The position numbers were made by a program, and so were the translations under genes. This document shows positions 48,594-53,631 of a DNA stretch of 64,000 nucleotides, piece after piece. This stretch comes from Algibacter mikhailovii (GTDB lineage Bacteria > Bacteroidota > Bacteroidia > Flavobacteriales > Flavobacteriaceae): positions 1-64,000 of the forward strand of contig NZ_BMWZ01000010.1 of the NCBI RefSeq assembly GCF_014651495.1. Direction: 5' to 3'. A model generated the notes under the pieces. It saw nothing but the letters and a program-made list of their open reading frames with translations, made no database searches and was not told the origin of the DNA. How positions within the stretch are numbered: the stretch's first letter is position 1; every line of letters starts with the position of its first letter.

Positions 48594-51212
48594 CTACTCA
48601 TCCAGTTCCATAATGAGGTTAGCAATTAAAGCCGTCCAACCTGTTTGATGTGATGCCCCTAGACCTCTACCGTTGTCTCCATCAAAAAACTCATAAAAGA
48701 AATGTTCATTCTTAAAATGTTCATCTTTAGTAAACAACTTATCTGCATCATCAGAATGGTATTGCGCTTTACCTTCATCATTAGGTTCAAAAAGCTTTAT
48801 AAGTCGTTTACTTATTTCATTAGCAATCTGCTTTAAATTAAGCTTATTTCCAGATCCTGTTGGGAATTCATAAACGTAAGTTGGTCCGTAAAACTCATAA
48901 TACTTTCTCAAAGATTGTACAATCATATAATTTAAAGGCATCCAAATGGGGCCACGCCAATTGGAATTACCGCCAAACATATTTGACCTGCTTTCGCCCG
49001 ATTCATATTGGATTTGATGATAGCCATGATGCACGAATACAAAAGGATGTTTTTCATGATATTTTGAAAGTGAACGAATACCATATTCTGATAAGAACTC
49101 CTCTTCATCTAATAGGCGCTTTAGTAGATGTTCCAACCTAAACCCGCGCATGATAGAGAATAAATGATTACCATCTGCATTAGCTTCTTCTATATTGGAA
49201 ATTAAAGAGGCTAAATCAGGGCGTGTTCTCACAATATTAGCGGCTCTTACTTTAAATTCTTGAAGCTGTTCATAAAGATCTTCATGTATGATTTCTACGG
49301 CAAACATTGGGATTATACCCACTAAGGAGCGTACTCTTAATCTATCGGTAACACCACTTGCCATTTCTACTACATCATAATAAAATTTATCTTCATCATC
49401 CCACAGGGATATATCTCTTTTCCCGATATGGTGCATGGCCCATGCAATATTTAAAAAGTGTCTAAAAAACTTAGAAACCGACTCTTCATGTATTTTATTG
49501 GTTTTTGCCAATTCAAGAGACATGCGCATCATATTTAAGGCAAACATGGCCATCCAACTTGTGGCATCAGCTTGCTGCATTCTTGTGATACCTTGGGGCA
49601 TATGATTACGATCAAAAACGCCAATATTATCTAAACCTAAAAAACCACCTTCAAATAAATCGGTTCCATTTTTATCTTTTTGGTTGACCCACCACGTAAA
49701 ATTAATGAGTAACTTTTGAAATGCTTTTTCCAAAAACTTAGTATCCCCCTTACCTGTTTGCAGCTTATCTTTCTCATAAACATTCCAAACCGCCCAAGAA
49801 TGCACCGGTGGATTGACATCACTAAAATTCCATTCATAAGCTGGAATTTGACCATTAGGATGCATGTAGTTTTCCTGTAACACTAAGAGTAACTGTTCTT
49901 TGGCGAAATAAGGGTCAATTTCAACAAAGGAGGCCATATGAAACGCAAGATCCCAAGCGGCATACCAAGGATACTCCCATTTATCGGGCATAGAAATAAC
50001 ATGCCTGTTGGTGAGGTGTTGCCAGCTATAATTTCTTAGATTATGCCGTTCTGGTTTTGATTCACCAGGGCCACCAAACAACCATTTAAATACATCATTA
50101 TAATAAAACTGCTTGGTCCAGAGCAAACCTGAAAAGGCCTTTTTAGCAATATTCCTCTGTGTCTCTGGTATTTTTTTGTCTATTATATTGTTATAAAATT
50201 CTTCGCATTCCCGAATTCTATCATCAAAAATAGAATCAAAATCCGCCCAAGGATCAGCAATTTTCCTTTTCTTTAAACGAATTCTTATACTTTTTTCTTC
50301 ACCAGCTTTCAAGTTTAATTTATACCAAACTGCAAACTTAGAACCCGTTTTTTTCGGATTTACAGTGGGTTCTCCATGAATAACATGATCGTTTATACCA
50401 TCCTTAACATATTCAACTTCATTTGCATAATTATAAATCCTTTGGTTATTGGTCTCATTTTCACAAAATAACTGTTCACCACCTGCGTGGTGTAGATAAT
50501 AACGTCCATTTCTTACACTTCGAGATAGGACACAATCATCTTGAATAGCTTTCATGCTTGGGCGCTCAAACCGTTCATTATGCTTCCAAAAATTTCTAAA
50601 CCATAGGTGCGGTAAAACATGAATATCTGCACTTTGTTTTCCTCTATTAACTACGGTTACTTTCATTAAAATATCATCAACATCAGCTTTGGCATACTCA
50701 ATAAAACAGTCAAAATAATTACCGTCCTTAAAACATCCGGAATCTAATATTTCAAATTCATCTTCATCTCTACTTCTTTGGTTCTTATTTACAATATCTC
50801 CGTAAGGAAATTTCCCTTGGGGGTATTTATACAAATATTTACAATAAGCATGTGTTGGTGAGGATACTTGATGAAAATACAACTCCTTAACATCTTCCCC
50901 ATGATTTCCTTGATTATTAGTTAAACCAAAAAGGCGTTCCTTTAAAATATCGTCTTTTCCATTCCAAAATGCTGGGGCCATGCAGAGTATTTCTCTAGAA
51001 TCCGTAAATCCTCCAATTCCTTCCTCTCCCCATCTATAGGCATTACTTCTGGCCTTATCATGATCAACAAACTCCCATGCTTCACCATATAAACTATAAT
51101 CTTCTCGTACCGTTCCCCATTGCCGCTCTGCTAAATAGGGTCCCCATTTTTTCCATTTCCTATAAGAATTAGAACTTGCCAACCGTTCTGCTTCCTGTCC
51201 TTTTTTAGTCAT
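48594..51212 (-). CDS. large GH63-like (MGH1-type) glucosidase
   Basis: An 872-residue cytoplasmic protein (no signal peptide). The N-terminal region (RKWKKWGPYLAERQWGTVREDYS...SNAYRWGEEGIGGFTD) is a family-specific beta domain. The C-terminal half is an (alpha/alpha)6-barrel: WYAAWDLAFHMASFVEIDPYFAKEQLLLVL, HPNGQIPAYEWNFSDVNPPVHSWAVW, GGNSNWRGPIWMPLNYMIVQSL, and the final HQTGWTALIANLIMELD. The fold is shared by GH63 alpha-glucosidases and mannosylglycerate hydrolases. Substrate (glucosylglycerate or an oligosaccharide) is unresolved. A structured leader lies upstream (51454-51582). Confidence 0.85.
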   Translation of the reverse strand: MTKKGQEAERLASSNSYRKWKKWGPYLAERQWGTVREDYSLYGEAWEFVDHDKARSNAYRWGEEGIGGFTDSREILCMAPAFWNGKDDILKERLFGLTNNQGNHGEDVKELYFHQVSSPTHAYCKYLYKYPQGKFPYGDIVNKNQRSRDEDEFEILDSGCFKDGNYFDCFIEYAKADVDDILMKVTVVNRGKQSADIHVLPHLWFRNFWKHNERFERPSMKAIQDDCVLSRSVRNGRYYLHHAGGEQLFCENETNNQRIYNYANEVEYVKDGINDHVIHGEPTVNPKKTGSKFAVWYKLNLKAGEEKSIRIRLKKRKIADPWADFDSIFDDRIRECEEFYNNIIDKKIPETQRNIAKKAFSGLLWTKQFYYNDVFKWLFGGPGESKPERHNLRNYSWQHLTNRHVISMPDKWEYPWYAAWDLAFHMASFVEIDPYFAKEQLLLVLQENYMHPNGQIPAYEWNFSDVNPPVHSWAVWNVYEKDKLQTGKGDTKFLEKAFQKLLINFTWWVNQKDKNGTDLFEGGFLGLDNIGVFDRNHMPQGITRMQQADATSWMAMFALNMMRMSLELAKTNKIHEESVSKFFRHFLNIAWAMHHIGKRDISLWDDEDKFYYDVVEMASGVTDRLRVRSLVGIIPMFAVEIIHEDLYEQLQEFKVRAANIVRTRPDLASLISNIEEANADGNHLFSIMRGFRLEHLLKRLLDEEEFLSEYGIRSLSKYHEKHPFVFVHHGYHQIQYESGESRSNMFGGNSNWRGPIWMPLNYMIVQSLRKYYEFYGPTYVYEFPTGSGNKLNLKQIANEISKRLIKLFEPNDEGKAQYHSDDADKLFTKDEHFKNEHFFYEFFDGDNGRGLGASHQTGWTALIANLIMELDE

Positions 51213-51915
51213 ACTTTCATTTTTAGTTTATCAAAAAACTTCCATGGCATTGCCTTAAACAACAACCATTAATCCAAATGAAATATCTCAAGAATAAATC
51301 GAAAATAATTAAAGAAGTTTTTCTAAATATAACAGAAAAAGAGCCTTCAAACAAGTGATTTTAGTTTATGGCTCACGAATTATTAAAATTAAATTTAAAT
51401 TAATTTTTTGTGCCTTTATGTGAAAAAACACCTTAATTTTTATTGAACTTAATAAAAAAACCCTTTGCTCTCTCAAGAAAAGGGTCTAATTAATGTAGAG
51501 AGCCTTCAGTACACAGAAAAAGTAACCAACCAAAATTAACCCTAACTAAAGTTAATCCCACGCACTTTTAGAACTCTCTACAATACCTCAAATAACTTAA
51601 TTTGTAAAAACTTTGACCCTAATGGAATCTTCTTTTAGCTACCTTTTACGATGGTAGATGATTTTTAGTGAAAGCTTTTAGTCTAAGTAACAATTATGGT
51701 AAATTCTTTTACTAAAGTCCCCTAACAACATTTAATACAGATAGTTTCCAATCCTTTTTTGCGTTTAAATATCATGCTTTAAAGCCATGTTTATTACAAA
51801 CCAAAAGTTGTAAATACAGTCTTAATTAAATAAAAAAGTACAAACAATTAATTATCCTTATCAAATTTAGTAAATTGTAACAACAATAACATGTTCAAAA
51901 TCAATTATTTAAACC
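51213..51915. other. 703-bp spacer: glucosidase leader, then promoter region of the TPR gene
   Basis: This spacer holds a structured - strand element at 51454-51582, described separately. Closer to the glucosidase gene, AGAGCCTTCA (51340-51349) repeats AGAGCCTTCA (51499-51508), and CAGAAAAAG also occurs next to both copies, in swapped order. A weak - strand hairpin (GAGCC 51374-51370 with GGCTC 51345-51341), followed by TTTTTC, could be a second terminator. From 51600 to 51915 I see only AT-rich sequence. Confidence 0.4.
51454..51582 (-). ncRNA. putative attenuator leader or small RNA with intrinsic terminator
   Basis: Read on the - strand: UGUAGAGAG (51582-51574) can pair over 9 bp with CUCUCUACA (51502-51494). 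The latter is adjacent to a segment that can instead pair over 7 bp (GCUCUCU with AGAGAGC, 51473-51467) with the loop of a terminator hairpin. The hairpin stem is ACCCUUU (51485-51479) with AAAGGGU (51466-51460), followed by TTTTTTATT. A 23-codon ORF (GTG at 51561-51559, TAA at 51492-51490) ends right after the shared segment. This is the geometry of a transcription attenuator. It might also be a free small RNA. Confidence 0.4.
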
Positions 51916-53631
51916 ATGAAAAAAGGAATTATAATTTTCTTCACATTAAGCTTATTTTTTTCTTGTAAAAACTCCAAGGAAGAACCTCAGACTATTATCA
52001 TTAGAAAATCACCTAATTCTAAATACACTTGCATCCCTCCAACTACCGATGCAGATTGGTACAAAAAGGATAATATTGCACCTCTTTTAGATGGTTATGA
52101 TGTTATAGATTACCCTATAACAACGAGTAATCCATTAGTGCAACGCTATTTTAATCAAGGGTTGGCTTTGGCTTATGCTTTTAATCATGCTGAGGCGGCT
52201 AGATCATTTCATTACGCTACAAGAATTGACCCCAATTGTGCTATGGCATTTTGGGGACTTGCCTATGTCTTGGGGCCTAACTACAATGCAGGAATGGAAC
52301 CCGATAACTACGGACGCGCTTTTAAAGCCATTGAAAAAGCCAAATCCCTTGCTCAGAATTCTACAAAAAAAGAACAAGAAATCATTGAAGCCACGGCCAT
52401 ACGTTATTCGCCTGAACCTCCTGAAGATAGAAGTCAATTAGATCTCAATTACTCAAAAGCCTTAAAATTACTCCAGAAAAAATATCCTGACGACGTTGAA
52501 ATTGGAACACTATATGTTGAATCTTTGATGAATGTACATCCATGGGACTTATATAATCATGCTGGAGAAGCCAAACCTTGGACTCATGAAATTGTTAATC
52601 AATTGGAATACCTAATTAAAAAAAACCCAAAACATCCTGGAGCCCATCATTTTTACATCCATGCTGTTGAATCTTCTAATACCCCAGAACGCTCAAATGA
52701 ATCGGCAAAAGCCTTTGATAATGGTTTAGTTCCTGGTTCAGGACATCTATTACATATGCCTTCACATACTTACATTAGGACAGGAGAATATCATAAAGGC
52801 ACTTTATCGAATATTGCCTCAGTAAAAGCAGATAGTTCATATATAAGTACCTGCCATGCCCAAGGGGCCTATCCATTAGCTTATTACCCGCATAACTATC
52901 ATTTTATGGCAGCCACAGCAACGCTAGAGGGCAATAAGCATTGGGCTATGATTGGTGCGAATAAAGTTTCAAAACTTGTCCACCCGGAAATTATGAAAGA
53001 ACCCGGATGGGGAACCTTACAACACTACTATACTATCCCTTATTACATAGCAGTAAAGTTCAAAATGTGGGATGAAATTCTAGAAATGAGCTTAGACACC
53101 TACCAATTAAATTATGTACAAGCCATTCAACATTATGCCCAAGGTATGGCATATTTGGGTCAGAAAAACATGAAACAGGCTAAAATTGAATTAACGGCCC
53201 TTGATGCACTTGCTAAAGATGAAAGTATGAAAAGCATTAGCATTTGGGAAATCAATACGGTCTATGATCTTGTACAAATTGCCAAAAATGTTTTGGAAGC
53301 AGAAATTCTAGCGGAAGAAGGGCAAGTTGACAAAAGTATTATCATTTTAAAAGAAACCGTTGCAATGGAAGATGCCCTAAATTATAATGAACCTCCCGAT
53401 TGGTTTTTTTCGATTAGGCATCACCTAGGTGCCATTCAATTACAAGCCAAATTATACGAAGATGCTATTGTGACTTATAAGGCAGATTTAAAAAAATTTC
53501 CTAAAAACGGATGGGCACAACACGGCTTAAAAGAAGCTTATAGTGGATTAAATGATTTAAAAAGTCTTGCACAGGTAAACACTGATTTGGATGAAAGCTG
53601 GGCACATGCTGACTATAAAATTGAATACTGA
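51916..53631 (+). CDS. TPR-repeat lipoprotein
   Basis: A 571-residue protein with lipobox LFFSC (Cys about 17). The tetratricopeptide-like region begins near residue 75 (QGLALAYAFNHAEAARSFHYATRIDPNCAMAFWGLAYVLGP). It continues with repeats around KNPKHPGAHHFYIHAVESS, HYAQGMAYLGQKNMKQAKIEL and GAIQLQAKLYEDAIVTYKADLKKFPKNGWAQHGLKEA. Histidine-rich segments (HLLHMPSHTYIRTGEYH, GAYPLAYYPHNYHF) suggest a metal- or ligand-binding function besides scaffolding. The gene stands alone and its partner is unknown. Confidence 0.8.
   Translation: MKKGIIIFFTLSLFFSCKNSKEEPQTIIIRKSPNSKYTCIPPTTDADWYKKDNIAPLLDGYDVIDYPITTSNPLVQRYFNQGLALAYAFNHAEAARSFHYATRIDPNCAMAFWGLAYVLGPNYNAGMEPDNYGRAFKAIEKAKSLAQNSTKKEQEIIEATAIRYSPEPPEDRSQLDLNYSKALKLLQKKYPDDVEIGTLYVESLMNVHPWDLYNHAGEAKPWTHEIVNQLEYLIKKNPKHPGAHHFYIHAVESSNTPERSNESAKAFDNGLVPGSGHLLHMPSHTYIRTGEYHKGTLSNIASVKADSSYISTCHAQGAYPLAYYPHNYHFMAATATLEGNKHWAMIGANKVSKLVHPEIMKEPGWGTLQHYYTIPYYIAVKFKMWDEILEMSLDTYQLNYVQAIQHYAQGMAYLGQKNMKQAKIELTALDALAKDESMKSISIWEINTVYDLVQIAKNVLEAEILAEEGQVDKSIIILKETVAMEDALNYNEPPDWFFSIRHHLGAIQLQAKLYEDAIVTYKADLKKFPKNGWAQHGLKEAYSGLNDLKSLAQVNTDLDESWAHADYKIEY

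Follow-up and report, generated by a model that had tools for sequence, protein, structure and literature searches.

Small RNAs derived from the 3' ends of mRNAs are best known in Hfq-dependent Proteobacteria. CpxQ and MicL, which come from the ends of stress-operon mRNAs of enterobacteria, SdhX and others are described as RNAs of this origin in the part of the literature accessible to us (PMC9438474). A transcriptome study of Flavobacterium psychrophilum reports, in the sections available, strong signs that amino-acid operons are attenuated by leader peptides (PMC9723704), and the remark in the first-pass annotation of the present locus that attenuation is little described in this phylum is therefore not quite right. 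A mechanosensitive channel of Bacteroides is given as a predicted small RNA target in the available part of a further study (PMC10861873), which is a different relation from the one considered here.

Here we analyse an element on the minus strand of the window, by which we mean the whole stretch of 64,000 nt taken from a contig of Algibacter mikhailovii (NZ_BMWZ01000010.1). We propose, with a rough probability of 0.6, that this element is an orphaned structured RNA which in marine relatives forms the 3' end of an operon of ECF sigma factor, small protein and MscS-like channel, and which acts in trans as a small RNA. A search of titles and beginnings of abstracts in the open-access literature, which leaves subscription journals mostly uncovered, found no paper on the element, and the available parts of PMC9723704, PMC10861873, PMC11697453 and PMC7366714 (on Bacteroides small RNAs and the F. 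psychrophilum transcriptome) contain no mention of it.

Layout and fold of the window element

The first-pass annotation had read this segment as an attenuator-like leader upstream of the GH63-like gene, and its description of the letters was accurate. The terminator with a 7-bp stem and six T is present on the minus strand, its 12-nt loop does contain GAGAGAGC, and GCTCTCTACA has two possible partners, that loop (7 bp) and TGTAGAGAG at 51582-51574 (9 bp); the GTG-started ORF of 23 codons (VGLTLVRVNFGWLLFLCTEGSLH) is likewise found at 51561-51490. The assertion that these structures exclude each other holds in part: the 7-bp loop pairing would compete, but the 9-bp stem and the terminator occur together in the minimum-energy fold and are therefore not rivals.

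The segment 51582-51454 (minus strand) folds at -41.2 kcal/mol, compared with -27.9 +/- 3.4 for shuffled sequences (z -3.87), and none of 200 shuffles equalled this value. A covariance model (R1) matches the window copy at 51493-51582 with 80.1 bits. About 37 nt separate the two P2 arms in this copy; the coordinates of all features are collected in Table 1.

Table 1. Features of the element and its surroundings in the window
Feature	Position	Strand	Remarks
Whole element: structured RNA (P1, P2, conserved core) and terminator	51454..51582	-	Covariance model and fold z
P1 5' arm TGTAGAGAG	51574..51582	-	9-bp closing stem, 51582-51574 with 51502-51494 (-); in relatives Val-Glu-Ser codons (..KDIVES..) shortly before the channel gene ends
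P1 3' arm CTCTCTACA, 3' UTR side	51494..51502	-	
P2 5' arm AGTGCGTGG	51558..51566	-	In relatives the last codons preceding the stop
P2 3' arm CTGTGTACT	51508..51516	-	
Conserved core GGATTAACTTTAGTTAGGGTTAATTTTGGTTGGTTAC	51522..51558	-	In relatives at and immediately past the stop codon; 3/36 changed here
GTTAGGG, candidate binding or seed sequence	51540..51546	-	Shared with several diverged 3' ends of the channel gene
Intrinsic terminator: 7-bp stem, 12-nt loop, T run	51454..51485	-	Stem ACCCTTT/AAAGGGT pairs 51485-51479 with 51466-51460 (-); six further T follow
Channel-gene remnant, frame GIVESSKSAWD then stop	51552..51587	-	Rest of channel, small protein and ECF sigma gene absent
23-codon "leader ORF", judged chance	51490..51561	-	Start codon in 1/82 copies
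Scar of the missing operon, intergenic	51595..51862	.	blastn matches to the same-genus locus at chance level only
GH63/MGH1-like glycoside hydrolase gene, neighbour only	48594..51212	-	Pfam PF22422, PF03200
TPR-like gene, divergent from the locus	51916..53631	+	Flanks the intact ECF-channel operon in the same-genus genome

Occurrence in Flavobacteriaceae and anatomy in relatives

A DNA search of 99 relatives matched 16 genomes, eight of which, the window's own included, carry the element; in the other eight the matches were short and weak and all fell outside the core. ORFs were listed for six of the matched loci, and in each of them the match coincides with the 3' end of a gene for a 271-275-aa protein that ends in KDIVESQ followed by five residues, and one of these proteins has Pfam matches to a mechanosensitive channel (MS_channel_1st_1, MS_channel_2nd). 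The covariance model, which was built from eight copies and whose search filters may drop weak matches, recovers the element from 40 of the 397 genomes of the family, every match scoring at least 58 bits. A pattern scan of named genomes returned 62 stretches, from genera including Algibacter, Flavivirga, Hyunsoonleella, Seonamhaeicola, Aestuariibaculum, Mariniflexile and Wocania, and the model matches 61 of these 62 loci with 67 copies. The locus without a model match (L101, Cellulophaga) was rejected as a chance match within GTPase-like coding sequence.

Both searches together yielded 82 distinct copies, 74 of them attached to an MscS-like channel gene and eight unattached. In the attached copies, the last nine or so codons pair with the 3' UTR and thereby enclose the stop codon and the core with GUUAGGGUUA. 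Read 5' to 3', the relatives present Val-Glu-Ser codons (P1), the last codons (P2), the stop, the core GTTAGGGTTAAAATTTGGTTGGTTAC, the 3' arms and usually a terminator. The latter was placed in 72 of the 82 copies within the limits of the script; by eye, most of the other ten have one with a longer loop, whereas none is visible in L087 (3474) and that of L058 is weak. In Algibacter miyuki (L097, 4734-4825 and 4992-5083), the channel 3' end, RNA and terminator are tandemly duplicated at a distance of 258 nt.

The core was also considered as coding sequence and rejected, given that indels alter the frame between copies and that a second stop mostly follows two codons past the channel stop. A mobile element was dismissed on the grounds that 39 of the 40 genomes with a model match, and 55 of 61 hit loci, have a single copy, that most copies occupy the same place, and that no viral contig carries the core. 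At the gathering threshold, Rfam 15 has no match in the window or in the loci of 10 relatives; an E-value search of 751 bases gave six matches, all below their gathering scores (E at least 1.8). A search of 246 genomes of the order matched the window genome alone, and since those among them that were listed all belong to the same family it says little on other families.

Evidence for selection on the pairing

In the model alignment of 64 distinct rows, 92.8% of the helix cells pair, double changes occur in 10 of 26 pairs compared with 5.1 +/- 1.1 in shuffles (a number reached by 0 of 500), and pairing falls to 32-50% when the partner is slid by 1-3 columns; these figures lean towards the model, because the alignment was fitted to it. 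By helix, the double-change pairs divide into eight in P1 and two in P2. None of the 12 pairs of the core helix is among them, and the inner core helix is therefore unsupported by covariation and has conservation and energy as its sole basis.

Energies of the arm duplex point in the same direction. Among 38 representatives with less than 85% similarity, counting L058 although its arms were misplaced, a copy's own arms average -18.9 and swapped arms -14.1 +/- 0.47 (z -10.2), a permutation test from which, as from the others here, shared ancestry is incompletely removed. The own partner ranks first in three of the 38 cases and within the top three in 12, and in the unattached second copy of L104 the own arms have no advantage over swapped ones. 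Without gaps, at least 9 of 10 P1 pairs form in 64 of the 82 copies; when the letters of the 3' part are shuffled, 8% of the shuffles reach this number. The first-pass annotation had named a lack of conserved pairing in relatives as what would refute it, and the 9-bp stem on the contrary shows compensatory change; the annotation's alternative of a structured small RNA is supported, and the structure is conserved in relatives.

Codon usage adds to this picture. The Glu of the coding arm is GAG in 67 of 74 copies compared with 26% elsewhere in the same genes (up to 200 upstream codons), and the Ser is AGT or AGC in 73 of 74 compared with 32% upstream. By this codon bias, the coding arm is constrained as RNA.

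Relatives of the channel occur in 130 of the 397 family genomes, and from these we read 40 channel 3' ends that the model does not match. In 17 of them (group A, chosen by eye for a hairpin directly past the stop) the pairing of last codons with 3' UTR is strong, averaging -23.3, whereas swapping the arms gives -14.6 +/- 0.96 (z -9.0). As a group, the remaining 23, among which L169 was misplaced although near-identical to L167 of the first group, lack such strong pairing (z -1.3). Several diverged ends retain GUUAGGG in different settings, in a hairpin loop or as a single strand beside a hairpin. This persistence in differing surroundings points to the sequence itself as a likely working part, an inference from sequence comparison.

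Host operon and its promoter

Where the operon was read, its order is ECF sigma factor, protein of about 58 aa, channel and RNA. The sigma factor has Pfam sigma-70 regions 2 and 4 (one member). The protein of about 58 aa has no Pfam match; its conserved sequence, MDNPFK.INQPLKEVP.ELK.KVMSDIA.AKL.., is found between sigma factor and channel at L062 (2152-2325) and in other operons, and it is possibly an anti-sigma or partner peptide.

The sigma gene is preceded by GTGAC-N17-GTCTTA, a promoter-like motif of the kind that would be expected for an autoregulated ECF factor. It is present without mismatch in 33 of 48 upstream regions of first genes and with up to two mismatches at the usual place in 40, being absent in eight; none was found in five upstream regions of second, downstream sigma-like stretches. 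In each of 10 other genomes the pattern has at least one site, which lies at the channel operon in eight and elsewhere in two (G184, G198). The window genome has no site, which is weak evidence alone because the backward control likewise gives 0-2 per genome.

The same motif precedes a lipoprotein-like gene with ..CATNPFTGKKTMALVPNSQLF.. in two loci of different genera (L216, L206), which we take to be M48-peptidase-like, and in L222 a gene for a MGLFSFIKNAGAKVFGIG.. protein, presumably LysM/BON-like. The genes behind this promoter may constitute a regulon of osmotic or envelope functions, one no longer present in the window genome.

The window copy and other unattached copies

In a second genome of the genus, the gene order is TPR gene (diverging), ECF sigma factor, small protein, channel, element, GH63 gene and two convergent genes, which by eye resemble those for a LytTR response regulator and a histidine kinase. 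These neighbours recur in the window, where they flank the element alone, and sigma factor, small protein and channel are absent. The channel query, which matches 130 of 397 genomes, has no match in the window genome, nor is there a close ECF sigma factor, the best relative having 36% identity. This genome consists of 39 contigs, so that a gene might lie in a gap; the syntenic place is covered.

The two genomes are far apart, as four-fold sites of their GH63 genes are 38.5% identical (n = 221). The element is 84% identical between them (76/90) and the aligned stretch from terminator to GH63 66% (160/242). Measured against the attached copies, 5 of 9 coding-linker positions and 6 of 8 positions in the P2 coding arm differ in the orphan (means of the attached copies, 1.1 and 1.6), in sum 11 of 17 as against at most 6 in any of the 74 attached copies, whereas P1 is unchanged (0/9) and the core has changed at 3 of 36 positions; in the remaining 3' UTR the figure is 11 of 30 (attached mean 8.2). 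Such a combination of changes in linker and P2 with sparing of P1 and core is what continued selection on the RNA rather than on the protein would be expected to leave. The orphan's own two arms pair with -23.6 kcal/mol, second best of 38 partners (swapped median -13.8), and according to these computed energies P2 is re-formed despite the changes in its coding arm. The comparison of sequences suggests that the RNA was kept after the loss of the channel gene and may have a job of its own.

A second orphan occurs in another genus (G361, L052). A stop interrupts its channel codons, and P1 has all 10 pairs. There is less change in its coding arms, at 3 of 9 linker and 2 of 8 P2 positions, together 5 of 17 and within the attached range, so that this orphan adds little to the argument from rates. 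The sole channel match of this genome is a distant relative elsewhere with 46% identity; in a genome of the same genus (G173) channel and element are both present.

Each of the other six unattached copies is the second one near an operon. In three of them the copy follows the stop of a second sigma gene, within 10 nt in L087 and L064 and after 44 nt in L060; in L104, L094 and L100 it is found where just a sigma-like stretch without an intact ORF remains. Second ECF sigma genes behind the channel operon thus carry their own RNA copy (L087 2329-2411, L064 7016-7106, L060 2088-2176), and P1 of such second copies consists partly of different letters (in L064, TGCAGAA/TTCTGCA).

Searches for targets, promoters and protein partners

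The core complement TTAACCCTAAC occurs at 70 sites in 12 genomes, 12 of which are the elements' own opposite strands, and the reversed control at 49. Loci were available for 30 of the 70 sites; four of these lie at most 150 nt ahead of an ORF, before four different genes, one of them TonB-receptor-like by eye. Of 12 matches to the complement GTAACCAACCAAA, eight are on the element's own opposite strand. Core-complement sites do not recur ahead of any one gene, and the complements of both core stretches are without clear enrichment. Two sites of TTAACCCTAAC were also seen inside glycosyltransferase-like genes with similar N termini at L241 and L251 (G184, G214; by eye), which are possibly targets and possibly chance matches.

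Taking TTG-N16..23-TANNTTTG as the housekeeping promoter consensus, we found none in the 350-400 nt upstream of any of the eight unattached copies. The region upstream of the orphan has a single TAAATTTG at 51869 without a partner element, and no ECF-type promoter was found in it.

UUAGGG is an RRM-binding sequence (compare hnRNP A1), and RbpB is an RRM protein. Searches of the window genome found neither Hfq nor an RRM_1 protein, with controls positive in other genomes, and binding of UUAGGG by an RRM protein was accordingly rejected for this genome.

Discussion

We propose the following course of events for the orphaned small RNA. The RNA would be freed from the end of the channel mRNA by cleavage close to where P1 begins, about 30 nt ahead of the stop codon; P1 and terminator would keep the released RNA stable, and it would work in trans via the conserved core around GUUAGGGUUA, perhaps as the non-coding arm of a membrane-stress response under the ECF sigma factor. 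Since codons make up the 5' arm of the RNA, a single transcript could be used either as channel mRNA or as small RNA, but not as both. In the window genome, the RNA would be uncoupled from the channel and its sigma factor. A tentative extension, which we hold to be quite possible, is a small RNA family of Flavobacteriaceae fused to the channel, with the last codons as one strand of the RNA, that has been freed from the channel in several lineages, with copies also placed behind a second sigma gene, and has become an independent regulator where no Hfq was found. We also have to consider what speaks against the small RNA: no promoter was recognised upstream of the orphan, the target searches gave no conserved complement, and Hfq and RRM_1 proteins were not found. 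The core helix has no double changes (0/12), the own partner is best in just 3 of 38 cases, and the loss is perhaps recent and the orphan in decay.

The original proposal of a ribosome-controlled transcription attenuator of the downstream GH63 gene now deserves hardly any credence. The window copy does combine terminator, alternative pairings and short ORF, but a start codon at the homologous site occurs in one of the 82 copies (five cannot be placed), and core indels alter the frame; the 23-codon ORF is not conserved, and the caveat that it might be chance was well taken. The stem strand pairs with the terminator loop over at least 6 bp, by the measure of our script, in one of the 72 copies with a placed terminator and over 5 bp in one other. 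A GH63 gene lies at most 1.5 kb downstream on the same strand in four of 69 copies, the flank being insufficient in 13 of the 82, and even in the window about 240 nt separate terminator and GH63 start. The features that suggested an attenuator, namely loop pairing and ORF start, are private to the window copy. Given its strong homology to channel 3' ends, the element, judged by sequence, is part of the channel operon and not of the GH63 gene. Within that operon it could be a cis device of the channel mRNA, in which cutting of the stem, for example by RNase III, yields a non-stop mRNA and ribosome rescue, or in which the stem protects the 3' end; ribosomes arriving at the stop codon would open the stem, by analogy with the arfA mRNA of E. 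coli. In the 74 attached copies, and likewise among diverged forms of one group, the stop codon indeed lies between the arms of the stem of coding sequence and 3' UTR, codon choice is constrained, and arfA provides a precedent in the part of PMC3989581 available to us. Yet 8 of the 82 copies persist without an attached channel ORF, the window copy retains P1 and core after the coding constraint is gone, and a purely double-stranded device leaves the near-invariant core unexplained, so that we regard the cis device as unlikely on its own. Release of the small RNA would remove the stop codon from the mRNA, and an arfA-like role in cis may therefore coexist with it.

A rather improbable alternative is that the window element no longer functions, being a leftover of the missing operon that has persisted by chance after a deletion of fairly recent date. 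Sigma factor, its promoter and any other promoter were not found in our searches, and the one other genome of the genus compared has the operon intact, both of which would fit a remnant. However, the changes fall where only the lost protein would suffer (11/17 against at most 6) and spare P1 and core, the terminator is retained and P2 apparently re-formed, and a second genus has an orphan too (L052), with a weak pattern there (5/17). The remaining alternative, a binding site at which the stems display GUUAGGG to an RNA-binding protein, with the protein and not base-paired RNAs as the partner, in a sponge or storage role, strikes us as improbable. It would account for GUUAGGG being kept in the different structural settings of several diverged channel ends, and the lack of a conserved target complement in our searches agrees with it, but it is without a candidate protein, neither Hfq nor RRM_1 being found in the window genome.

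If the orphaned small RNA is real, it would be a clear case of an mRNA tail turned independent RNA gene in a bacterium where no Hfq was found, with a closing stem that was made from channel codons, kept via matching changes in the 3' UTR, and is still there now that the channel is gone. For testing this, the window genome and the other genome of the genus are a natural before-and-after pair.

Comparison with known systems

With ribosome-mediated attenuators, the window copy alone shares the terminator, the mutually exclusive pairings and the short ORF; the difference is that here ORF, loop pairing and downstream gene are without conservation. The arfA mRNA of E. coli, as described in the available part of PMC3989581, has a stem at the 3' end of the ORF whose cutting gives a non-stop mRNA, and here, too, an ORF-end stem is present whose cutting would remove the stop codon, except in the eight unattached copies. 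The arfA stem lies within the 3' region of the ORF, whereas the present one joins ORF and 3' UTR, with cleavage being putative, contains a conserved core, and also occurs without the ORF.

FopS and GibS of Bacteroides (PMC11697453, in the sections available) are likewise RNAs from Bacteroidota that are paralogous and share a conserved stretch, and one of the members derives from a 3' UTR. FopS has a single-stranded 5' seed stretch followed by a terminator and no closing stem over coding sequence, and these RNAs involve RbpB, whereas the search of the window genome gave no RRM_1 protein.

The closest likeness in origin would be to 3' UTR-derived small RNAs, as the element lies at the 3' end of an mRNA gene in 74 of 82 copies, ends in a terminator in 72 of 82, and has a conserved secondary structure with a conserved sequence stretch. 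In contrast to CpxQ, MicL and SdhX, as far as the available part of PMC9438474 describes them, the base of the present structure is coding sequence about 30 nt ahead of the stop, where changes match from genus to genus; the RNA has outlasted its host gene, the window genome gave no match for Hfq, and processing and targets are putative. In common with them (same source and extent), it has a 3' UTR with its own fold and the terminator of the mRNA, its host operon comprises a sigma factor and a membrane protein, and it is through such RNAs that sigma factors gain a repressing arm.
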